A stretch of DNA of 64,000 nucleotides, taken from Nitrospira sp. GTDB taxonomy: Bacteria > Nitrospirota > Nitrospiria > Nitrospirales > Nitrospiraceae. The stretch covers positions 1,040,734 to 1,104,733 of the forward strand of contig CP092081.1 of the NCBI GenBank assembly GCA_022226935.1, written 5' to 3'. Positions 23,387 through 48,419 of this stretch are shown piece after piece; within the stretch, counting starts at the first letter, position 1, and every line of letters begins with the position of its first letter. The notes beneath the pieces are model-generated. The model was not told the DNA's origin, made no database searches, and saw only the letters and a program-made list of their open reading frames with translations. Made by a program: the position numbers and the translations under genes.

Positions 23387-23532
23387 GAGGTCATTCCATC
23401 CAGACAAGGACGGCGTCCTGTTCCTGCATAATATGGATAACTTGTTGAGGGGATGCGGGAAGTGGTGTATGGCTTAACCTACACTGCTGCTTATGCAAGG
23501 CCTCGCGTCTATCCCAGGGAGGGGACTTGGTC

Positions 23533-28881: not shown

Positions 28882-30297
28882 ATGAGCCAGTCACACATTC
28901 TCGTGATCGATGATGATCCCGCAGTCCGCCAACTCCTGGCGGAAACACTTGCGAGTGAAGGCCATCAGGTCACGGTCATGTCGAGCGGGCTGGACGGGGT
29001 GGAGGCGGTGAAGGACCAACCGGTACACGTCGTCCTGACGGATCTTCAGATGCCGGGTATCGACGGACTGGAAACCATTGACAGAATCTCAAAGATCGAC
29101 TCCAAAGTGATTGCGATCGTCATGACCGGCTATGGAACGGTTGATTATGCCGTGCGAGCGATGAAAGCCGGCGCGTTCGACTTTATCACCAAACCGTTTG
29201 AGCCTGACACCGTTGCGGTCGTGGTGCGAAAGGCATTGGACGTCTACAAACTGAAACAGGAAAATCACCTGCTACGAAAAGCAGTGCGAGATCAGTATCG
29301 CCTTGAGCATTTGGTAGGCACCAGCGCGCCGATGCGGATGGTGCTGGATTTCGTCGAGAAGGTGGCTGATAGCGATAGTACCGTCTTGATCGAAGGGGAG
29401 AGCGGAACGGGTAAAGAATTGATTGCGCGCATGCTGCATTTCAACAGTATGCGACGAGATCGCCCGCTCGTGCCGGTCAATTGCGGTGCGATTCCTGAAA
29501 CGTTACTGGAGTCCGAGCTGTTCGGCCATGAAAAGGGAGCGTTTACCGGAGCCGCACACACACGGCTTGGTCGATTTGAACTGGCGCATGGCGGCACCAT
29601 CTTTTTAGATGAAGTCGGCGAGATGAGCCTGCCATTGCAGGTGAAACTGTTGCGCGTGTTGCAGGAGCGATGCTTCGAACGAGTCGGTGGAACCAGGACG
29701 ATTAACGTGGATGTGCGCATCATTGCCGCCACGAATCAGGATTTGGCGCAAGCCGTACAGGAACGCCGATTCCGGCAGGACTTGTATTACCGATTGCATG
29801 TCATTCCCATTCACATTCCTCCCTTACGGGAACGGCGCAGCGATATTCCGCTCCTCGTCAACCACTTTATCGCTCAATTCAATCAACTGCGCCGGACGGA
29901 GATTCTTGGCATGGAGCCGGATGCGCTGGTTCGCATGACAGAAGAGGAATGGCCGGGAAATATCCGTGAACTTGAGAACATGATTGAACGTCTCTGCGTG
30001 TTGAAGAAGAGGGGGATGATCACGCTGGCCGATCTCCCTGAACGTTCGTTAAAAACGGCAGGAGGAAAGGCGACTGAGGCGCCCGAGCAGTTTATTCGCT
30101 TCTCGGAAGATGGCATCAATCTGACGAAGGAGCTCGAACATTACGAAAATCGTCTTATCGGAGAAGCCCTTCGGAAAGCCAATGGCATTACCAGTCGGGC
30201 CGCGCAGTTGCTTCAGGTCAATCGAACGACGCTGGTGGAAAAATTAAAGCGGAAAGGTTTTGATCCGAAAAGTCACGGGTATTCCATTCAAAACTGA
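28882..30297 (+). CDS. Orphan NtrC-family sigma-54-dependent response regulator
   Basis: A 471-residue activator. The receiver has D10-D12, phosphoacceptor D54, T82 and K104, so unlike FlrA/FleQ it keeps phosphorylation residues. A linker helix (VYKLKQENHLLRKAV) leads to the AAA+ domain with GESGTGKE, an intact GAFTGA and FLDEVGEM. The C-terminal Fis-type HTH reads ITSRAAQLLQVNRTTLVEKL. No kinase gene is adjacent. It sits directly upstream of the sigma-54-promoted TPR-kinase-regulator operon, so it is a candidate master activator of that operon; this is an inference from position. Confidence 0.85.
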   Translation: MSQSHILVIDDDPAVRQLLAETLASEGHQVTVMSSGLDGVEAVKDQPVHVVLTDLQMPGIDGLETIDRISKIDSKVIAIVMTGYGTVDYAVRAMKAGAFDFITKPFEPDTVAVVVRKALDVYKLKQENHLLRKAVRDQYRLEHLVGTSAPMRMVLDFVEKVADSDSTVLIEGESGTGKELIARMLHFNSMRRDRPLVPVNCGAIPETLLESELFGHEKGAFTGAAHTRLGRFELAHGGTIFLDEVGEMSLPLQVKLLRVLQERCFERVGGTRTINVDVRIIAATNQDLAQAVQERRFRQDLYYRLHVIPIHIPPLRERRSDIPLLVNHFIAQFNQLRRTEILGMEPDALVRMTEEEWPGNIRELENMIERLCVLKKRGMITLADLPERSLKTAGGKATEAPEQFIRFSEDGINLTKELEHYENRLIGEALRKANGITSRAAQLLQVNRTTLVEKLKRKGFDPKSHGYSIQN

Positions 30298-30470: not shown

Positions 30471-32642
30471 GTGCGAACCTCATCCACCACAGCCCACTAC
30501 GCCCTCACTTGCACAGGCTACTTTTTGAGCTGGCTTCTGCTCGTAGGAATAGACCTTACCCTGGCCGCGGACGGCATCTCCACGATGCGCCAAGAGTTGC
30601 CGGCCATGATGCCCGAGCCATCGGAACTTGTCCGTGGAGCATTGCCCGATCCAGGGCCTCGGTTCGAGCGCCTGCCGGAAATCCCCGAATGGAAGCCGTT
30701 TGAACAGGGAGTAGGCCTCTACCATCAGGGGCAATACCTTGAGGCACGCCTCCATTTCACCAACATGCTTCGCGATCACCGCGAGTCGCCGCTGAGATCA
30801 TCCATGCAGGCGTTTCTCGCGGAAAGTACACTTCAGAGTCACGACCCTGATGTCCGCCCCCTCGACATCATCGATCAATACAAAACACTGATGCGCGAGA
30901 ATCCTCAAGCGACGAATGCCAAGCGGGCAGCCTGGCGTATCGGCGATGTGTATCGCATCGAGGGCTGGTTCCAGGAAGCGCAGATTGCCTATCAGCATGC
31001 GCTCTCCCTCTCGGAAACCGACTCGTTTGATGCCAATCGAGCCATGCTCGGCCTGGCCTATGTCCAGCGCGGATTTAAGAATTGGAAGGAAAGCACCCAA
31101 ACTTTCGATCATGTGTTGAAACGCACCGTTGACCCCACGCTGCTGGTATCCGCTTCGCTGGGCGAAGCGCACAGTCTCTACCGGTTGGGTCGGATGAGAG
31201 ATGCCGATGCGCTCTACGAAAGCATCTCCAGCCGGTGGCCGGCCGCACTTCGGAGCGATGCCTTTGCGTTGTTGCGGTATGCCGACACCGCTGGGGAAGC
31301 TAAGCGGGGCCCGGTGATGCGAGAGCAGTTGCTGCATTTCTACAATCTATATCCAAATCGGCCCGAAACTCCGTTCGTGCTGACCTACCTCGCCGATAGT
31401 TACAAAGAAGCCGGGCGGTGGGCGGAGTCGAGCATTTTCTACGCAGCATTATTAAGCCAATACCCTGAGGCTCCTGTAGCTGCGACGGCCCGCCTTCGGT
31501 ATGCCGATGTGCAGGAACATCTGGATCCGGAAGGGGAGGAGATCAATCTTCGACATACCATCTCGGCGCATCTGGCCAAGGTTCCATTGAAACCGGGGGA
31601 GATGCTCAGCCCTCGCCGGCTGTTCGAACAGAGCGCTAAGGAGTATGACAGCTCAATCGTCGGCAGCGAGGCCCTGTTTCACCTCGGAGAAACCTTAGAG
31701 AGGGCAGGCAAAGCAGAAGACGCCCTCCGCGCGTATGAACAGGTCGTGCTGCGCACCGGTAAGTTTGAAAATGATCCCTGGCCGGAAAAAAGCGGCGCGC
31801 AGTTGGTCCGTTTCCTTCGCCCTCGTCTTGAAGCCGCCCTTAAGGCAGAAGATGATTTTGAACTGATCAACATCTTCCATCGGCATGGCCCATTTGCCGA
31901 TCGGTTGTACGCCGGCACGGAGCTGCTGTTCAAGATCGCAGAAGCGCACCGCCGTCTGGGGTTTCCCGTAGAGTCTGCCCGCCTGTTCCAGTCCCTGGTT
32001 CGCGATCCCAAAGCAGAGAAGGTTCATGAAACGGCGTTAATGGGGTTGGCCTACAGCTACATGGAACAAAAAGATATGCGAGCCGCGCGTTCGGTGTTTG
32101 AACGATACCGCCTGGAGTTCCCAACCGGCCGGTTTTCAGGAGAGGCCCTGCGTGGAATTTTGAACTCGTTCGAGGGGGAAGAAAATTTTGCCGCGTTGCT
32201 CAAGCTCGGCAAGCAATGGTTGGCGCACAATCCGCGGCACCATGACCGCACGATGGTGCAGCTTAAACTAGCCGCGGTGTTGGCTCAGTCAAAACAAGAC
32301 GTTGAGGCGGCGGCCATCTACGACGGCCTAATCAAAGCCGGTCAGGAACTTCCCGCCGCGGACCTGCTGCGGCATGCCGACGCCCTGGCTCGTCTCAATC
32401 GCCGGGTGCAGGCACTGGCCATGTACAAAGAGGCTGTCGTCGCAGGGCTCGAGCCAGAACAGGAGGCCTGGGCCCAACTACAGATGGTTCAATTGGCACG
32501 CGGGGAGAAGCGCGAGGATTTTGCCAAGAACGGGCTGCGCGCACTCAGCGTCAATCCGGACAGTCTCGTTCGCCGCATGGCGGCCATGTTGGACAATGAA
32601 TTGCCGGAACCGCCGGCCGACAAACGGGGGAAAAAACCGTGA
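30471..32642 (+). CDS. Exported TPR-repeat protein coupled to the FlrBC-like two-component system
   Basis: A 723-residue protein. An N-terminal signal-like segment (GYFLSWLLLVGIDLTLAAD) suggests export. The rest is almost entirely helical tetratricopeptide-type repeats (for example LFHLGETLERAGKAEDALRAYEQV and FKIAEAHRRLGFPVESARLF), ending in a lysine-rich tail (PPADKRGKKP). Its TGA overlaps the GTG of the following sensor kinase by 4 bases (GTGA), so the two are translationally coupled. TPR arrays bind proteins, so it could be a periplasmic scaffold reporting on flagellar assembly. No family name is assigned. The GTG at 30471 has no clear ribosome site. Confidence 0.7.
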   Translation: MRTSSTTAHYALTCTGYFLSWLLLVGIDLTLAADGISTMRQELPAMMPEPSELVRGALPDPGPRFERLPEIPEWKPFEQGVGLYHQGQYLEARLHFTNMLRDHRESPLRSSMQAFLAESTLQSHDPDVRPLDIIDQYKTLMRENPQATNAKRAAWRIGDVYRIEGWFQEAQIAYQHALSLSETDSFDANRAMLGLAYVQRGFKNWKESTQTFDHVLKRTVDPTLLVSASLGEAHSLYRLGRMRDADALYESISSRWPAALRSDAFALLRYADTAGEAKRGPVMREQLLHFYNLYPNRPETPFVLTYLADSYKEAGRWAESSIFYAALLSQYPEAPVAATARLRYADVQEHLDPEGEEINLRHTISAHLAKVPLKPGEMLSPRRLFEQSAKEYDSSIVGSEALFHLGETLERAGKAEDALRAYEQVVLRTGKFENDPWPEKSGAQLVRFLRPRLEAALKAEDDFELINIFHRHGPFADRLYAGTELLFKIAEAHRRLGFPVESARLFQSLVRDPKAEKVHETALMGLAYSYMEQKDMRAARSVFERYRLEFPTGRFSGEALRGILNSFEGEENFAALLKLGKQWLAHNPRHHDRTMVQLKLAAVLAQSKQDVEAAAIYDGLIKAGQELPAADLLRHADALARLNRRVQALAMYKEAVVAGLEPEQEAWAQLQMVQLARGEKREDFAKNGLRALSVNPDSLVRRMAAMLDNELPEPPADKRGKKP

Positions 32643-33928
32643 TCAGGCAGGAGAGCGACACCACCAACAACGATCTGCTGACGCGCGCGTTTCGCGATTT
32701 TGATCAGGCCGCCACCGTGTTGCAGCAGTCGTATGACGCATTAACCACGCGCCTGCAGCAAATGGATCTCGAGCTTGCACAAACCAATGCCAGTCTCCGC
32801 GAGCATCTTCGTGAAACCGAGGAAATGCGTGCCCATGTCACGGCAGTGTTGGAATCCCTGGACACCGGCGTCATTGTAGCCGACTCACAGGATGTGGTGG
32901 TGCGGTGCAATCATTCCACGGAGCAGCTGCTCGGCGTGCCGCAGGCACAACTGCGAGGGCGTCAAGCCAGCGCCGTGTTGGCAGAGATCCGCAAAGACCA
33001 CGGGGAGTACCCGGTCCTGCTTCCCAGCGGTGTCACCATTGCTTTGTCACAAACCGACTTGACCGATGAATCGGGCAACCTGAACGGAAAACTCGTGCTG
33101 ATCCATGACGTCACGCGCGTCCGCCAGCTCGAGGATCGTTTGCAACGGCGCAACCGATTGGAAGCCATGGGGCAGATGGTGGGCAGCATCGCGCATGAAA
33201 TCCGAAATCCGTTGGGCAGTGTCGAGTTATTTGCCTCCATGTTACGCAAGGATCTTCGCGACCAACCTCAATTGCGGAGTTATGCGGAACATATTTCCAT
33301 GGCGGTTCACTCCATGGATCAGCTCCTCTCCAATCTGCTCATGTATACCAGGCCCGACTGTTCGCGGTTGGAATGGCACGACACCGAAGTACTGATTCGC
33401 GACGTTCTGACACTGGCTAGTCACGCCATCTCGCCGGACTCTGTCGAGGTCCGGTGCCAGGTGCATCCGCTCGTGCCTCAGCTCTGGTGCGATGGCCCCA
33501 AGATGAAGCAGGTCCTCTTAAATTTGGTCTTGAATGCCGTTCAGGCCATGCCGAAGGGCGGAACGCTCGCCCTCACCGCCTGTCCTGCTCCTCCGGAAAT
33601 CCAGGAATCGCCGGCGGTCCACGTGACGGTGACTGACACCGGGATGGGCATTCCAGCCGAATTGCAATCGAGGGTTTTTGATCCGTTTTTTACCACAAAG
33701 GATCAGGGGACCGGTTTAGGCCTCGCCATCGTGCACGCATTGGTCGAGGCCCACCATGGACGAATCGATGTGGAAAGCAGCCCGGGGCAGGGCACCTCGT
33801 TTGTGATCACGCTGCCGCGAGGGCCAGTGCAGACGTCTTCGACGTCTGCTTCGCTTGTCACCGTGTCCGGCCGTTCGGAGAGTTCACGTCAGATTACGAG
33901 CATCACCGAAGAAAAGAGGTACGAATGA
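32639..33928 (+). CDS. Cytoplasmic sensor histidine kinase, FlrB/FleS-like
   Basis: A 429-residue kinase with no transmembrane segment. It has an N-terminal coiled coil (about residues 5-65), a PAS domain (VTAVLESLDTGVIVADSQD..., about 68-165), and HisKA with IAHEIRNPLGSVELFASMLRKDL (His about 186), close to FlrB/FleS. The HATPase domain follows, with N-box LNLVLNAVQAMPKGG, DTGMGIPAELQSRVFDPFFTTK and GTGLGLAIVHALVEAHHG. The downstream regulator overlaps by 4 bases. In Vibrio and Pseudomonas this pair controls mid-class (hook-basal-body) genes with sigma-54, and this operon likewise lies just before flgB. Confidence 0.82.
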   Translation: MIRQESDTTNNDLLTRAFRDFDQAATVLQQSYDALTTRLQQMDLELAQTNASLREHLRETEEMRAHVTAVLESLDTGVIVADSQDVVVRCNHSTEQLLGVPQAQLRGRQASAVLAEIRKDHGEYPVLLPSGVTIALSQTDLTDESGNLNGKLVLIHDVTRVRQLEDRLQRRNRLEAMGQMVGSIAHEIRNPLGSVELFASMLRKDLRDQPQLRSYAEHISMAVHSMDQLLSNLLMYTRPDCSRLEWHDTEVLIRDVLTLASHAISPDSVEVRCQVHPLVPQLWCDGPKMKQVLLNLVLNAVQAMPKGGTLALTACPAPPEIQESPAVHVTVTDTGMGIPAELQSRVFDPFFTTKDQGTGLGLAIVHALVEAHHGRIDVESSPGQGTSFVITLPRGPVQTSSTSASLVTVSGRSESSRQITSITEEKRYE

Positions 33929-35343
33929 GCGCGCAACCAGCCTTACAGGGACCTTCAGCTTGTGCCGAGGAAGCCCGAACAGTCCTGATCGTCGATGATG
34001 AACCGTCGATGCGGACGGCGTTGTCTGAAACGGTGCGTCGAATGGGATATCAAGTCCGTAGCGCCATCGACGGGGCTGATGCGATCGAACAGGTGGAACG
34101 GTTGAAGCCCTGGTTGGTGGTGACCGACTTAAAAATGCCGCGGCTGAACGGTCTCGAACTCGTCAAAGCCTTAAAACAGAAAGCCCCCCACACGTTCATC
34201 ATCCTCATGACCGCCTACGGAACAGTCGAGACTGCCGTAGAAGCCATGAAATATGGGGCGAATGATTACATCTTAAAACCGTTCTCCACCGACCTCCTCG
34301 AGCGGGTCATCATCAATCTGCAAGCCAGCACAGAGCCGGATGAGCAGGACGCTCCTGCAGCGCTGGAAGCGCGCGCGATCTTGACGCAAGACCCAGGCAT
34401 GATCCGCCTGCTCACAACGTTGGAGGGTGTCGCGGCCAGCCAAGCCACGGTGTTGATCAGCGGCGAAAGCGGCACGGGAAAAGAGCTATTGGCACGCTAC
34501 ATTCATGCGAGAAGCCCTCGCGCCCATCGCCCCTTTGTGGCCCTCAATTGTGCCGCGCTTCCGGACAGTTTGCTGGAGAGTGAGTTATTCGGTCATGAGC
34601 GCGGGGCGTTCACGGGGGCGATTCAGAAAAAGCTCGGCAAGTTTGAAATGGCCCATACCGGGACGCTGTTTCTCGATGAAATCAGCGAAATGAATTTAGG
34701 CCTGCAATCGAAACTCTTGCGGGTGCTGCAAGAACGGGAAGTCGATCGCATCGGAGGGCGCGAACCGGTCCCGGTCAATATCCGGGTGATCGCCACGACG
34801 AATCGCTCGCTCTACCACGAGGTGACACAAGGGCGCTTCCGGGAGGATCTATTTTACCGCTTGAATGTCTTTCCGGTGACGGTGCCGCCGCTCCGCGAAC
34901 GACCGGGCGACATTCCGCTCCTCGCACGGCATTTTCTCCGGTCGTCGGCGCACCGCAACGGCCTGAGCGTACCCACACTGTCTGAGCGCGCCATCGCCGA
35001 TCTCCAACAGCGGGCATGGAAGGGAAACGTGCGCGAGCTTGAAAATGTCATGGAACGCGCCATTTTGGTGACAACCGGAAACGCGGTTGACGTCGATCAT
35101 TTGATGCCTGGGGATGGGACGGTCCCCATTCAACCGATCGAAACCGTGGAAGCGCTCGTGGCACCCTCGGCACACGGATCGTTGTGGGAAATGGAACGGG
35201 AGCTGATCTTCAAGACCCTGGCACGAGTGAAAGACAATCGCACCCATGCCGCCAAGGAGTTAGGCATCAGTATTCGCACGTTGCGCAATAAACTCCGAGA
35301 ATATCGTGACATGGGGTATCAGGTGGAGGCGGAAAAATCCTGA
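33925..35343 (+). CDS. Sigma-54-dependent flagellar response regulator, FlrC/FleR-like
   Basis: A 472-residue NtrC-family activator: receiver with D24/D25, phosphoacceptor D68, T96 and K118; AAA+ with GESGTGKE, intact GAFTGA (GHERGAFTGAIQKKLGKFEMA) and FLDEISEM; and a Fis-type HTH, THAAKELGISIRTLRNKLRE. The ATG overlaps the kinase stop (ATGA). Expected function: phosphorylated by the FlrB-like kinase, it activates sigma-54 promoters such as those predicted before flgB, fliL and flgF. The separate orphan regulator at 28882 could sit above it in the hierarchy. Confidence 0.82.
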   Translation: MSAQPALQGPSACAEEARTVLIVDDEPSMRTALSETVRRMGYQVRSAIDGADAIEQVERLKPWLVVTDLKMPRLNGLELVKALKQKAPHTFIILMTAYGTVETAVEAMKYGANDYILKPFSTDLLERVIINLQASTEPDEQDAPAALEARAILTQDPGMIRLLTTLEGVAASQATVLISGESGTGKELLARYIHARSPRAHRPFVALNCAALPDSLLESELFGHERGAFTGAIQKKLGKFEMAHTGTLFLDEISEMNLGLQSKLLRVLQEREVDRIGGREPVPVNIRVIATTNRSLYHEVTQGRFREDLFYRLNVFPVTVPPLRERPGDIPLLARHFLRSSAHRNGLSVPTLSERAIADLQQRAWKGNVRELENVMERAILVTTGNAVDVDHLMPGDGTVPIQPIETVEALVAPSAHGSLWEMERELIFKTLARVKDNRTHAAKELGISIRTLRNKLREYRDMGYQVEAEKS

Positions 35344-38354: not shown

Positions 38355-39356
38355 ATGGCCATCAACAAAGAGCTCAGCGGCGCACAGAAGGCGGCCATTC
38401 TACTTCGAGCGATGGGAGAAGAAGCCGCGGCGGCGGTCATGAAGTCACTCGATCCGAAAGATATTCGGAAGCTCGGCGAGTTCATGAAAGAAACCGCGAA
38501 TATTACCAAGCAGGAAGAAGACAGCGTGATCGCGGAGTTTGAGCAGGCGAGCTCTTCAGGAGAAGTGCAATTCGAAGGGCGGGAGTTCATGGAAGCCATC
38601 CTCAAGAAAGCGCTGGGCCCCGAAAAGGCCGCGCGGATGATGGAATCCCTGAACACCAAAACCTATCCTGGGATCGACGCGTTGAAATGGGTCGACGCTC
38701 GCACGGTCGCGCAGATCCTCAAGATCGAACATCCGCAGACCATTGCCGTGTGTCTGGGCCAAATGGAAGCCGAACAGGCGAGCGCCGTCCTGGCCCTCTT
38801 GCCGGTGCATTTGCATGCCGACGTCTCTCTGCGGCTGGCGACTATGCAAGAAGTGCAGCCGGAAGTATTGGCGGAGCTCAGCGACAGTTTGCAGGAAATT
38901 CTGTCGGCTTCGATGGGGATGTCGAGCATGTCGGTCGGCGGAGCCGAGTTGATGGCCGACATCCTGACCCGCGTCGATAAGAATACTGAAGGCGCCATCA
39001 TGGCCAAGATCACCGAGCGCGATCAGGCCCTCGCGGAAAGTATCCGCGCCTTGATGTTTGTCTTCGACGACCTCGTGGATCTGGATTCGCGCGGCATGCA
39101 AGAGCTCATGAAGGAAATCAGCAAAGAAGACCTTCCGATCGCCTTGCGTGGCGCGACTCCGGAAATCAAAGACAAGTTCCTCAAGAATATGTCGAGCCGT
39201 GCGGCAGAAATGTTGAAAGAGGACATGGAGACGCGCGGGCCGGTCAAGGTGTCGGATGTCGAAAAGGCCCAGCAGAACATTCTCAAAGTCTGCCGCAAAC
39301 TCGAGGAGGAGGGCCGCATCGTCATCGGAGGCGGCGGAGGCGAGGAGTTATTGTAA
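38355..39356 (+). CDS. fliG: Flagellar motor switch protein FliG
   Basis: A 333-residue C-ring component that transmits torque and binds FliF, FliM and MotA. It has the N-terminal FliF-binding part (LSGAQKAAILLRAMGEEAAAAVMKSL), an armadillo-type middle (EHPQTIAVCLGQMEAEQASAVLALLP), and the torque helix region with charged residues (FVFDDLVDLDSRGMQELMKEI; ARDxx-type downstream helices). The gene ends with GGGGGEELL and its stop TAA is directly followed by the ATG of the REC-FliH gene. Confidence 0.96.
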   Translation: MAINKELSGAQKAAILLRAMGEEAAAAVMKSLDPKDIRKLGEFMKETANITKQEEDSVIAEFEQASSSGEVQFEGREFMEAILKKALGPEKAARMMESLNTKTYPGIDALKWVDARTVAQILKIEHPQTIAVCLGQMEAEQASAVLALLPVHLHADVSLRLATMQEVQPEVLAELSDSLQEILSASMGMSSMSVGGAELMADILTRVDKNTEGAIMAKITERDQALAESIRALMFVFDDLVDLDSRGMQELMKEISKEDLPIALRGATPEIKDKFLKNMSSRAAEMLKEDMETRGPVKVSDVEKAQQNILKVCRKLEEEGRIVIGGGGGEELL

Positions 39357-40406
39357 ATGGGGAGCGCTGCCGCGGGCACGGGCGTTTCGATGGCGGCTTC
39401 GCCCGAGTCAGAAAAGGAACTGTCGCCGCGGGCCGTCTTGATCGTCGACGACGAGCCCTCTATCTGTTTGTTGCTGGCCGAGATGCTGGAGCCCACGGGA
39501 CATCCCGTTCTCACGGCCGGCTCCGTTCAAGAAGCGCTCCGTCATCTCCGAACCCGCTCCGTGGCCGTGGTGATCGTGGATGTGCAGCTCGGCGGCGCCG
39601 ATGGCATCGCCTTTCTGCAGCAGGCTCTCGACATCGATAATCGCCTGCTGGGGATCGTGATGACGGGCCACGGCAACATTGAGTTGGCCGTCCGGGCCAT
39701 GAAGTCCGGAGCGGCGGATTTTCTCACCAAACCGTTTCAAGTCGAGCTGGTCCGGCTCGCTGTATCCAGATTGCTGGAACTCTACCGGTTGCGGCAGGAG
39801 AATACCGTGCTCACCCGCACGTTAATTCGCTCCGGCAACATTCAATTACGTCCCGTGCCGCTGGCGGATTTCAGCCGGGGGAATCGTCCATTTGGAACCG
39901 AGGATGTCACGGAGTTTGAGCGGGGAGTCGCAGAAGGAGAGAAGCGTTCGACCGAGCGGGTGGCTGCGGCTCGACAACGAGAGCAGAGTCTCGTGGCGTC
40001 CCTGATGACGCGCCTGGAAGAAACCTGGCAGAGCCTGCACGAGACAGTCGAAGAGGAAATCGCCTCCCTCTCGTTTATGATCGCGCACAAGGTGGTACGG
40101 GATGTCGTCACGGAAAAACGCGACCTGATCGTGACGCAAGTCCGAACCGCTCTCGCCCACTTGCATGAAAGCGGGCTCGTGCGCGTACGGGTCCATCCAT
40201 CTGATCTCTCCGTGCTCGAATCGTCGCGGACTGCATTGAGTCAGACACCGCACGGCCTCTTGACCTTAAAATTTGAAACCGACCCTTCCATCAGTCCGGG
40301 GGGATGCCTCGTCCAGGCGCAGAGCCTGCTGATCGATGCGACTCTGGACACCCAGTTGTTACGGCTGGGCGAAGCCTTAAAAAAGCGGGACGCCGGTGAA
40401 GCTTAG
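39357..40406 (+). CDS. fliH: Response-regulator receiver domain fused to FliH (export ATPase regulator)
   Basis: A 349-residue fusion in the normal fliH slot. Residues about 25-140 are a complete receiver domain: D31/D32, phosphoacceptor D75 in VVIVDVQLGG, T103 in IVMTGHG and K125 in LTKPF. Residues about 138-157 form a coiled helix (LLELYRLRQENTVLTRTL). Residues about 185-349 are FliH: a charged coiled coil (EFERGVAEGEKRSTERV), then RVRVHPSDLSVLE, DPSISPGGCLVQ and LIDATLDTQLLRLGEAL, the FliI-binding end. FliH dimers hold and inhibit FliI and tie it to the C-ring through their N-terminus, which the receiver replaces here. fliI overlaps by 11 bases. There is no frameshift or second start between the domains, so the fusion is read as one chain. 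Confidence 0.9.
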   Translation: MGSAAAGTGVSMAASPESEKELSPRAVLIVDDEPSICLLLAEMLEPTGHPVLTAGSVQEALRHLRTRSVAVVIVDVQLGGADGIAFLQQALDIDNRLLGIVMTGHGNIELAVRAMKSGAADFLTKPFQVELVRLAVSRLLELYRLRQENTVLTRTLIRSGNIQLRPVPLADFSRGNRPFGTEDVTEFERGVAEGEKRSTERVAAARQREQSLVASLMTRLEETWQSLHETVEEEIASLSFMIAHKVVRDVVTEKRDLIVTQVRTALAHLHESGLVRVRVHPSDLSVLESSRTALSQTPHGLLTLKFETDPSISPGGCLVQAQSLLIDATLDTQLLRLGEALKKRDAGEA

Positions 40407-41703
40407 CGAACGGTTGGAACATGTCGAGCCATTGTCGGTCACGGGCAGGGTCGCTCAGGCTGTCGGCATTGTCATTGAAGCCTCAGGACCGTTCACCTCC
40501 GTCGGGGAGGTCTGTGAGATCACTCGTGAGGGAGGCCACGGAGCCGTCATGGCGGAAGTCGTGGGCTTCCGTGAAGATCGCGTGCTGCTGATGCCATTGG
40601 GTGAAATGCAGGGGATCGGGCCGGGTAGCCGTGTGGTGATGAAGGGACATGTCGCATCCGTCCCCGTCGGCCCACAAATGTTGGGACGTATCTTTGACGG
40701 CCTCGGTCATCCATTGGACGGACTGCCGCCTCTTCGCAGCGACGTGCGTGTCCCCCTGTATGCGGCGCCGTTGAATCCCTTGCATCGGGCCAGAATCACA
40801 CAGCCCGTCGATCTGGGTATTCGCGCCATCAATGCCTTGCTGACGTGCGGCCAAGGCCAGAAGATCGGTGTATTCGCCGGGTCAGGCGTGGGCAAAAGCG
40901 TGCTCCTGGGCATGATCAGCCGCTATACGCAGGCTGATGTCCGGGTCATTGCCCTGGTCGGGGAACGGGGGCGGGAAGTCAAAGAATTCCTGGAACGCGA
41001 TCTCACGCCTGAAGCCAGAGCCCGTTCCATTGTCGTCGTGGCGACGTCCGATCAACCACCGCTGGTTCGCATTCGTGGGGCGCTGGTCGCCACTGCGATT
41101 GCAGAATATTTTCGCGATTGCGGCAAACATGTCCTCCTCATGATGGACTCGCTTTCCCGATTGGCGTACAGCCAGCGCGAAGTCGGATTGGCCATCGGGG
41201 AACCGCCGACGACCAAGGGCTATACGCCCTCTGTGTTTGCCGTCTTGCCGAAACTCCTGGAGCGGGTCGGACCGGCACAAAGCGGGGGCAGCATCACCGG
41301 ACTGTACACCGTGTTGGTCGACGGCGACGATCTCAATGATCCGGTAGCGGATGCCGTGCGCTCTATTCTTGATGGCCATATCGTGCTGTCGCGGGAACTC
41401 GCCGCGCGGAATCATTTTCCGGCGATCGATATTCTGCAGAGCACCAGCCGGGTGATGCGGGATATCGTGACACCCGCACATTATGCGGCTGCGCGCCTGG
41501 TTCTCGAACGTACGGCACTGTATCGGCGATCCGAAGATCTGATCACGCTGGGCGCGTACAAGCCCGGCACGAGCAAAGATCTCGATAAAGCCGTGTCCGC
41601 TCATGACGGCATCACGGCGTTTCTGCGGCAGGAGACCAAACAGGCGGTCGGCTTGCCGCAATCAATCGACGCCCTCCTGGCACTGGCAGGAACGATTCAA
41701 TGA
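40396..41703 (+). CDS. fliI: Flagellum-specific export ATPase FliI
   Basis: The 435-residue ATPase of the flagellar type III export machine, related to F1-beta. Walker A is FAGSGVGKSVLLGMISRYT (about residues 156-174), followed by VGERGREVKEFLERDL and MMDSLSRLAYSQREVGLAIGEPPTTKGYTPSVF, all FliI signatures. The GTG start at 40396 lies inside the end of the REC-FliH gene, coupling the two. fliJ overlaps the end by 4 bases. Confidence 0.96.
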   Translation: MKLSERLEHVEPLSVTGRVAQAVGIVIEASGPFTSVGEVCEITREGGHGAVMAEVVGFREDRVLLMPLGEMQGIGPGSRVVMKGHVASVPVGPQMLGRIFDGLGHPLDGLPPLRSDVRVPLYAAPLNPLHRARITQPVDLGIRAINALLTCGQGQKIGVFAGSGVGKSVLLGMISRYTQADVRVIALVGERGREVKEFLERDLTPEARARSIVVVATSDQPPLVRIRGALVATAIAEYFRDCGKHVLLMMDSLSRLAYSQREVGLAIGEPPTTKGYTPSVFAVLPKLLERVGPAQSGGSITGLYTVLVDGDDLNDPVADAVRSILDGHIVLSRELAARNHFPAIDILQSTSRVMRDIVTPAHYAAARLVLERTALYRRSEDLITLGAYKPGTSKDLDKAVSAHDGITAFLRQETKQAVGLPQSIDALLALAGTIQ

Positions 41704-42140
41704 ACGTGACCGTGCTCCGAGCCTATGCGGTGCAGCTTGAAGAAGTCGCCAAACTGGAGCTGGCGGAACTCAGTCATGCCCTGCAGCAGACAGTGAATCG
41801 AATGGTTCTGTTGGAATCACGCGCCAAAGAAGATGCCGACCGGTATCTTCTGCAGGTCCGTGAAGGCAGCACCGTTGATCAGGTCTATGGCCACCTCGAT
41901 GCCATGGACCAGGCCATCGCAGCACGAAAAGGGTTGGAGAAGGCGTTGGCGACGGAGCAAGCCAGGATGGAACAGAAGCGGGCTGAACTTCTCGAAGCGA
42001 TGCAGTATCGCAAGAAGCTCGATCTCCTCGATGCGCGAGCCGCGCTGGATGCACGACGCCGTCGCGAACGCCAAGATCAGCAATTGCTCGATGAACGCGC
42101 CTGGAGACGAAGCCCATTGCACAAGGGAGAACGGGCATGA
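41700..42140 (+). CDS. fliJ: Export chaperone-escort FliJ
   Basis: A 146-residue all-helical protein of FliJ type: two long heptad helices (LEEVAKLELAELSHALQQTVN and AMDQAIAARKGLEKALATEQA) and a basic C-terminus. FliJ fits into the FliI ring like the gamma subunit of F1 and activates the export gate at FlhA. Sequence identity in this family is low, so the call leans on the position after fliI and on the coiled-coil build. The ATG overlaps the fliI stop (ATGA). Confidence 0.82.
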   Translation: MNVTVLRAYAVQLEEVAKLELAELSHALQQTVNRMVLLESRAKEDADRYLLQVREGSTVDQVYGHLDAMDQAIAARKGLEKALATEQARMEQKRAELLEAMQYRKKLDLLDARAALDARRRRERQDQQLLDERAWRRSPLHKGERA

Positions 42141-42769
42141 CGCAGACGGGGAGCCGTACTGAACAGGGATGGTGTGCCGGCGCGGCGACGCGGGTGCTTT
42201 TCAGTGCGCTCTTGCTCACGGTCGCACTCTCAGCTCACGCGGCGGAAGAATCGAAGCCGGCTCCTGCGGTACAGAAAGAAGAGCCGAAGCCCGAGAGCAT
42301 AAAAAAAGACATCCAGGGGCCGGCCACCATCGCCCCACGTGAAATTTATGAAATGCTGGAGCAGCGTAAACGGCTCTTGGACAAGCGTGAGACGGCCGTG
42401 CGTGGATCGGAGACGCATCTCTTGGAACTGAAGGCGGAGTTGGAGCAGATCGTCACGCGCCACGAGCAAGCGGTGGAGGCGGAAAAGAAACGCCGCCAGG
42501 CCGCTCAGGCCAAAGGCGCGGGCGAGGCCGACAAAGCAAAAACGCCGGGCAAAGCCACTCCGGCTGTCAACGTCAATCAGGCCCAACTGGCGAAGATCTA
42601 CGAAGCGATGCCGGCCGAAGAAGCCGCGGCCAGGCTGGAACGCATGCCCGAACGCAAGGCGCTCGAAGTTCTCCGGCTCCTCAAAGGCAAGTCTGCGGGG
42701 GCCATTCTGGCGGAGGTCAAGCCGGAACGCGCAGCCCGGCTGACCGAGCAATTACTGACCACACCCTAG
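42137..42769 (+). CDS. MotE/FlbB-like stator chaperone, periplasmic
   Basis: A 210-residue exported protein. The signal segment (VLFSALLLTVALSAHAAEE) is followed by a Pro/Lys/Glu-rich linker, a coiled coil (about residues 75-115) and a C-terminal MgtE-N-like helical domain (LAKIYEAMPAEEAAARLERMPERKALEVLRLLKGK), the arrangement of MotE. In other bacteria MotE binds MotC or acts with the stator in the periplasm. The ATG overlaps the fliJ stop by 4 bases. No motA or motB is in the window. Confidence 0.72.
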   Translation: MTQTGSRTEQGWCAGAATRVLFSALLLTVALSAHAAEESKPAPAVQKEEPKPESIKKDIQGPATIAPREIYEMLEQRKRLLDKRETAVRGSETHLLELKAELEQIVTRHEQAVEAEKKRRQAAQAKGAGEADKAKTPGKATPAVNVNQAQLAKIYEAMPAEEAAARLERMPERKALEVLRLLKGKSAGAILAEVKPERAARLTEQLLTTP

Positions 42770-47049: not shown

Positions 47050-48021
47050 ATGGACAAGATACTCTCCCAGGAAGAAATCGATGCCTTGATGGGCGGAGTC
47101 ATGTCCGGCGAGGTCGAAACGGCGCCGAAGGAAGAGGAAGCCCCCGGGGGAATCAAAACCTACAGTCTGACGAGCCAGGAGCGGATCATTCGCGGGCGCA
47201 TGCCCACAATGGAAATGATCAATGACCGCTTCACGCGCCAGCAATCCGTCTCGTGGACCAGTGCCCTGCGCGAGAAGATCGAATTCAGCGTCCTTGGCAC
47301 GCAAATCATCAAGTTCGGGGATTTCATCCAAAAGGTCCCCGTGCCGTCCTCATTCAATCTGTTTGCCATGGAACCCTTGCGTGGCAACGGGCTTTACATC
47401 ATGGACGCCATGCTGGTGTACCTGATCGTGGATTTCTTCTTCGGTGGCAAGGTCCAGACGCATGTCAAGCCGGAAGGGAGAGAGTTCACGACGATCCAAC
47501 TCCGGTTGATCAAGAAACTGGTTCAGCAGGCGCTGGTCGATCTGGAGAAGGCATGGCAGGCCGTCATGCCTGTGAAGCTCAACTATCTGCGCTCGGAGAG
47601 CAACCCTCAATTCGCCATGGTGGTCACCACGTCGGAAATTGTCGTCGTGGTCACGCTCCAGGTGCATCTCGGTGACATTACCCGCGAAATGTTTATCGCG
47701 TATCCCTACTCCATGTTGGAACCGATCAAAGAAAAGCTCTACTCCGGCCTCTTTGCCGACAACGTGGAGCAGGACAGCAGCTGGGGCAGCCGGTTTAAGG
47801 ATTCGCTGCAGGAATGCGATGTGGCTGTGACGGTTCAACTGGGGACGGCCAAAATCAACGTGCAGGACCTGATGAACTTCAGTCCCGGCGATGTGTTGAT
47901 GCTGGATCAACATCCCGGCGATCCGATGCTGTGTCTGGTCGAGGGCGATCCGAAATTTCACGGGCAGCCCGGGGTTTTTAAAGGCAATCATGCCTGCCGC
48001 GTTACCAAGGTCTTGAGTTAG
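47050..48021 (+). CDS. fliM: Flagellar motor switch protein FliM
   Basis: A 323-residue C-ring subunit. It starts with the CheY-binding-type peptide MDKILSQEEIDALMGG, joined by an acidic linker to the middle domain (TMEMINDRFTRQQSVSWTSALR) and the C-terminal SpoA domain (VAVTVQLGTAKINVQDLMNFSPGDVLML). It binds FliG above and FliN below. Part of the fliLMNOPQR-flhBA operon. Confidence 0.96.
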   Translation: MDKILSQEEIDALMGGVMSGEVETAPKEEEAPGGIKTYSLTSQERIIRGRMPTMEMINDRFTRQQSVSWTSALREKIEFSVLGTQIIKFGDFIQKVPVPSSFNLFAMEPLRGNGLYIMDAMLVYLIVDFFFGGKVQTHVKPEGREFTTIQLRLIKKLVQQALVDLEKAWQAVMPVKLNYLRSESNPQFAMVVTTSEIVVVVTLQVHLGDITREMFIAYPYSMLEPIKEKLYSGLFADNVEQDSSWGSRFKDSLQECDVAVTVQLGTAKINVQDLMNFSPGDVLMLDQHPGDPMLCLVEGDPKFHGQPGVFKGNHACRVTKVLS

Positions 48022-48050: not shown

Positions 48051-48419
48051 ATGGGCAACGGCGATACAACCCCGCAGGCGGATGCGGCCAATGCCGCGGA
48101 CATGAGCCCGCAGGCGACCTCGTTTCCCCCGGTCGATAACCAGGGAGCGGTGCCAGCGAACAAAAATATCGATTTCGTGCTCGACATTCCGTTGCAGGTG
48201 ACGGTGCAGATCGGCTCGACACGCATGTTGATTCGCGAGTTGTTGCAGCTTGGACAAGGCTCCGTCATCGAGCTGAATAAGCTGGCAGGGGAGCCGATGG
48301 AAGTGCTGGTCAACAATAAGCTGGTGGCGCGCGGCGAGGTCGTGGTGGTCAACGAAAAGTTCGGCATTCGCTTGACGGATGTCGTAAGCCCCAATCAGCG
48401 CATTCAGCAACTCGGATAA
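48051..48419 (+). CDS. fliN: Flagellar motor switch protein FliN
   Basis: A 122-residue C-ring protein with a variable acidic N-terminus and a SpoA domain: FVLDIPLQVTVQIGSTRMLIRELLQLGQGSVIELNKLAGEPMEVLVNNKLVARGEVVVVNEKFGIRLTDV, nearly canonical. FliN forms the bottom of the C-ring and is the normal docking partner of the FliH N-terminus, which here is replaced by a receiver domain. The ATG at 48051 follows AAAGGAG. Confidence 0.95.
   Translation: MGNGDTTPQADAANAADMSPQATSFPPVDNQGAVPANKNIDFVLDIPLQVTVQIGSTRMLIRELLQLGQGSVIELNKLAGEPMEVLVNNKLVARGEVVVVNEKFGIRLTDVVSPNQRIQQLG

Follow-up and report, generated by a model that had tools for sequence, protein, structure and literature searches.

FliH joins the ATPase of the flagellar type III export apparatus to the base of the motor. 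In Salmonella, residues 1 to 18 of FliH (W7, W10 and L15 among them) dock on FliM–FliN (PMC4443714), W7 and W10 also touch FlhA, and the protein is a dimer (PMC9114704). A signaling system of the flagellar kind, FleSR, has been reported for Nitrospira (PMC5767232). Direct signal input to FliH, we did not find in the literature searched. Here we describe a FliH that carries a response-regulator receiver in the same chain. Such a built-in receiver would give type III export a point of post-translational control.

Receiver and FliH in One Chain

The stretch of DNA we analyzed (the window) comprises 64,000 nucleotides of a Nitrospira sp. genome of 4.23 Mb in a single contig (GCA_022226935.1, CP092081.1, positions 1,040,734 to 1,104,733), and the flagellar genes, the sigma-54 regulators and the soluble kinase described below lie on its forward strand. 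Its fliH occupies 39357–40406, a single frame of 349 aa with an ATG start, directly after the stop codon of fliG (38355–39356; stop at 39354–39356) and overlapping at its 3′ end the start of fliI at 40396. We assign fliI, the export ATPase (40396–41703), from position and sequence. Behind it come fliJ (41700–42140), an ORF with an MgtE_N-type C-terminal part (42137–42769; possibly a MotE-like flagellar chaperone) and, further on, fliM (47050–48021) and fliN (48051–48419, with the hydrophobic stretch EVVVV). In relatives, too, fliG and fliI are found next to the gene.

Two Pfam families, and only two, rise above cut-off in the protein. Response_reg (PF00072) covers aa 27–134 (39435–39758; E = 2e-22, well over the curated cut-off), and FliH (PF02108) covers aa 213–336 (E = 7e-21; 74.9 bits against a curated cut-off of 24.1). 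The AAA+ sigma-54 interaction and DNA-binding domains are absent. The original prediction of a receiver and FliH in one chain, in the slot between fliG and fliI, is thus borne out, as is its reading of the receiver residues D31/D32, D75 (codon at 39579–39581), T103 and K125. Between the two domains runs a predicted linker helix (aa 141–158, 39777–39830) that prolongs helix 5 of the receiver and is common to fused FliH and NtrC-type regulators; it is followed by the C-ring docking motif that FliH has kept, IQLRPVPLADF (aa 162–172, 39840–39872), and then by the stalk and C-terminal domain of FliH (aa 186–345, 39912–40391). An AlphaFold model built with 32 family sequences shows the same order of parts: a receiver with block pLDDT mostly 86–93 whose helix 5 runs on to aa 158, a low-confidence coil or predicted disordered loop at about aa 159–185 with the docking motif inside it, then the stalk as a long helix, and last the C domain of FliH. 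With a pTM of 0.42, the relative positions of the domains in the model are not fixed.

Could two genes have been fused by a frameshift, a misassembly or an annotation artefact? Within the genus, FliH was found in 28 of 29 genomes, and all 28 have both parts in a single open reading frame. This frame is 349 aa long in 26 of them and 347 aa in another; the last, of 338 aa, meets a contig end. Another 28 fused sequences from elsewhere in the family agree, so a frameshift, for which the original prediction had allowed, or a chimeric assembly is ruled out. Both parts are also under purifying selection. Nei–Gojobori comparison over genus pairs puts dN/dS lowest in the linker (141–158), at 0.016, followed by the loop (159–185; 0.035), the FliH C-terminal domain (0.053), the receiver (0.065) and the stalk (0.083), with the N-terminal tail highest at 0.265. 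Constraint on the receiver is thus similar to that on FliH proper. An artefact thus has a negligible chance of being the explanation, and the receiver–FliH architecture is secure.

Two records deserve a remark of their own. One draft genome of the genus (G007) has two differing fliH copies on separate contigs, L011 and L037, 92% and 81% identical to the window's, and is probably a mixed bin. The other, L039, has the record title "uncultured Nitrosospira"; its FliH shares 98% identity with the Nitrospira protein of the window, and the title is probably a mislabel.

A Receiver of the NtrC Type

The receiver has its fold with the acidic pair, the acceptor aspartate, the T/S and the lysine all present. 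All 57 aligned fused sequences have D75, T103 and K125, and a pseudo-receiver is out on that count. The acidic pair is more variable: 55 sequences have D at position 31 and the other two have E; at position 32, D is found in 50, and the rest have A (four: L149, L150, L153, L169), H (two: L060, L173) or G (one: L159). Since the second acidic residue of receivers is expected to help bind Mg2+, phosphorylation may be weaker in the minority that lacks it; loss of D32 may be a sign of weaker phosphorylation or of a phosphorylation-independent state. By sequence, fold and tree the receiver is NtrC-type and not CheY-type. Among solved structures, it matches DctD and NtrC1 best by sequence and NtrX best by fold.

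The Docking Motif Behind the Receiver

The original prediction held that the N-terminal docking segment of FliH had been replaced by the receiver. It has not been; the segment now lies inside the chain, directly behind the receiver. Unfused FliH across the phylum share an N-terminal motif (IKPYIPSAFDE and VHAFEMTEL are examples), which can be written phylum-wide as hydrophobic-x-P-[YFW]-x-hydrophobic-x-x-[FL]. In profile–profile alignment with hhalign, the window's SGNIQLRPVPLADF aligns onto this motif. Scored with a motif profile, 34/58 fused linkers exceed 5 bits, against 6/1,160 shuffled and 0/58 NtrC-type linkers; the 58 fused linkers are mutually related, so these scores are to be read as support and not as a probability.

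What has changed is a clamp residue. The aromatic equivalent to W10 is found in 37/39 unfused FliH and in 2/57 fused ones, the two being members of the earliest-branching genera. In the receiver-bearing core clade the residue is aliphatic (V167 in the window), and F172 is kept in 55/57 fused sequences. The receiver-less clade of the family has an aromatic at the clamp position (YQL, YEI). Fused FliH have lost only this aromatic and the extreme N terminus, of the KWSKVIK type in the sister family. As we read these sequences, the receiver was added ahead of FliH, and the docking peptide stayed, to be altered later in the core clade. The clamp change maps to one event on the tree, so the correlation between receiver and clamp rests on a single change.

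The window also has a candidate internal start, an AGGAG–GTG site at V151, from which a second, receiver-free FliH might be made. We reject it: the GTG is found in 19/57 only, and the GGAG upstream is variable.

Distribution

We scanned 396 genomes of the phylum for FliH, then fetched the loci and aligned 57 fused sequences. The fusion is found in nearly the whole of the window's family, for which we use the name Nitrospiraceae. Three sequences from two genera have a FliH without receiver (L152 and L165 in genus g3, L167 in genus g6). The sister family and other classes have plain FliH, of about 200–280 aa in most of the listed frames; the longest frames there are 294 and 313 aa, and the one of these that we read has long glycine repeats and no fusion. 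A partial match, L061, is a receiver–FliH fusion interrupted by a contig end. Some fairly complete genomes of the family, such as G103, G127, G167 and G179, have no FliH match whatever, which is consistent with flagella loss of the sort reported for N. japonica (PMC5767232).

Outside the phylum, we searched five others with a profile of the fused alignment, scoring 6–10 candidates in each of 1,287 genomes, and found no receiver–FliH fusion (247, 349, 247, 246 and 198 genomes, from the phyla of the Desulfarculaceae, Pseudomonas, Acidobacteriaceae, Planctomycetota and Spirochaetes records). The matches there were NtrC-type receivers with linker only. As a positive control, true fusions score 425–525 bits with this profile, and either half alone scores at most 166. 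A scan of 84,980 species, by a method that detects close relatives only, returned full-length relatives only in Nitrospira-type records, N. defluvii among them.

Origin of the Receiver

In a tree of FliG and FliI, the receiver-less genera g3 and g6 are nested within the receiver-bearing family. The node joining them with the other receiver-bearing genera, to the exclusion of g11 and g14, has support of 0.999; the family node is weak (0.37). One gain and one loss of the receiver is the simplest reading of this tree. The loss has left a natural control group, and as a whole clade keeps FliH without the receiver, export as such can do without it.

Where did it come from? The FliH receivers are monophyletic (0.954), and their sister is the receiver of an NtrC-type regulator (REC-AAA-Fis, 28882–30297) encoded about 10 kb upstream of fliH, at the same spacing in Nitrospiraceae and the sister family. 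In the genome of the window this is also the best other receiver match, with 40% identity and 106.9 bits against 78.4 for the next. The sister family's orthologue of the regulator falls outside the grouping of FliH receivers and 28882-type receivers. A 28882-type regulator is likely the donor lineage of receiver and linker. The sequences place the capture, a single one, in the stem of Nitrospiraceae, from a regulator lineage of the same cluster: a domain of a transcriptional regulator has passed to the machine that the regulator's own cluster encodes.

The regulator itself is 52–73% identical outside the genus, and no kinase gene directly adjoins it. In L152, L165 and L167 the receiver is gone from FliH and the 28882-type regulator is kept. 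In the window, a 723-aa TPR protein (30471–32642) separates the regulator from a soluble kinase.

What the Receiver Might Do

That kinase (32639–33928) is a PAS-HisKA-HATPase protein of the FlrB/FleS type, with no transmembrane-like stretch, and next to it is an FlrC/FleR-like sigma-54 regulator (33925–35343). We pick it, from position and solubility only, as the most likely phosphodonor for the FliH receiver; the specificity regions of the receiver do not point to any one kinase. The original prediction had proposed FlrB-like and GlrK-like kinases; the former stands as the nearest soluble kinase, and the latter, at 23527, becomes the weaker candidate, because the receiver descends from the 28882 regulator and the nearest soluble kinase is that at 32639.

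Receiver–linker modules of the DctD/NtrC1 type shift their dimer arrangement on phosphorylation. FliH is itself dimeric, and in the fused protein the linker helix ends just ahead of the retained docking peptide. The path from anatomy to function would be shortest if phosphorylation altered the docking of FliH–FliI. That the protein is a single-chain response regulator with the export-ATPase stalk as its output, and phosphorylation a candidate tuner of C-ring docking, is a reading we believe and doubt in about equal measure. In this reading D75 would be phosphorylated by a histidine kinase, for which the soluble FlrB/FleS-like protein is the likeliest choice; this would alter the dimer geometry of the receiver, and the change would be relayed via the linker helix; the relayed change would modify binding of the docking peptide to FliM–FliN (and FlhA); and FliI recruitment, hence the rate of export or the stage of assembly, would follow the signal. 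We infer each of these steps. Against the reading stand the 7/57 sequences with A, H or G at position 32, the clade that keeps FliH after losing the receiver, the single event behind the clamp change and the choice of kinase by position. A bolder form we hold more tentatively, with doubt slightly ahead of belief. It has a two-component phosphorelay acting directly on the type III export ATPase, with receiver phosphorylation switching the docking of FliH–FliI at the C-ring and the kinase setting export post-translationally, in parallel to transcription and CheY/FliM. The phospho-control hypothesis of the original prediction survives the sequence tests, with the fusion and the residue set found family-wide, and has lost the replaced docking segment.

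Suppose instead that the receiver has a constitutive part in the structure, serving FliH dimerization or C-ring docking in part substitution for the aromatic clamp, with phosphorylation minor or nil. The clamp aromatic, kept in the receiver-less clade and in nearly all unfused FliH and gone from nearly all fused ones, fits such a role, as do the 7/57 sequences substituted at D32. A structural role does not, however, demand that D75, T103 and K125 be invariant across the family, and we think it unlikely, though worth taking seriously. The signal might also run the other way, with the FliH receiver draining or recruiting a flagellar kinase so that the two sigma-54 regulators (28882 and 33925) would respond to the state of assembly, through a checkpoint or phosphate sink. 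A receiver derived from a regulator of the same cluster may share that regulator's kinase, and there is precedent for a link between a kinase and the export gate in H. pylori, where FlgS binds FlhA (PMC6978683); but FliH would have to be abundant enough to compete for the kinase, and we regard this reversal as improbable.

More doubtful still is a receiver that works like CheY, phosphorylated by CheA and binding FliN or the N terminus of FliM at the C-ring, there affecting switching or anchoring the ATPase. The fliM of the window does begin with a CheY-binding-type N terminus (LSQEEIDAL), and the genome encodes CheA-type kinases; yet the NtrC type of the receiver, on which sequence, fold and tree agree, leaves such a role little room. 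Phosphorylation-tuned docking is the reading we prefer, and it suggests that a sensor kinase controls the building of the flagellum directly at the export machine. The Nitrospiraceae are environmentally important nitrifiers, and the fused protein is spread across them. The evolutionary series (a sister family without the receiver, a family with it, one clade that lost it) makes the idea testable.

Comparison with Known Systems

The original prediction had left room for the architecture being well described already. In open-access full text we found no description of a receiver–FliH fusion (subscription papers and database annotations lay outside the search), and a survey of FliH repeats makes no mention of one. 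In receiver–FliH, two families that are each well known form a new combination of domains, and the protein resembles, in part, several described systems. With Salmonella-type FliH (PF02108) it shares the slot between fliG and fliI, the stalk, the C-terminal domain and the C-ring docking motif; unlike that protein it has a receiver and linker ahead, an internal docking peptide and no aromatic clamp residues. Its receiver and linker helix ally it with the NtrC-, DctD- and NtrX-type regulators on sequence, fold and tree alike; it has no AAA+ or DNA-binding domain, and its output is FliH. The FleSR/FlrBC system of polar flagella has its counterpart in the soluble kinase and sigma-54 regulator of the window's cluster; its known outputs are transcriptional, and here the receiver sits on a protein of the export apparatus. 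CheY is a stand-alone receiver, and the one in the window is fused to FliH and is NtrC-type by tree and best matches. In H. pylori, a soluble flagellar kinase is tied to the export apparatus through the contact of FlgS with FlhA (PMC6978683). The partner on the signaling side is a kinase in that case, and in the window it is a receiver that forms part of FliH itself.
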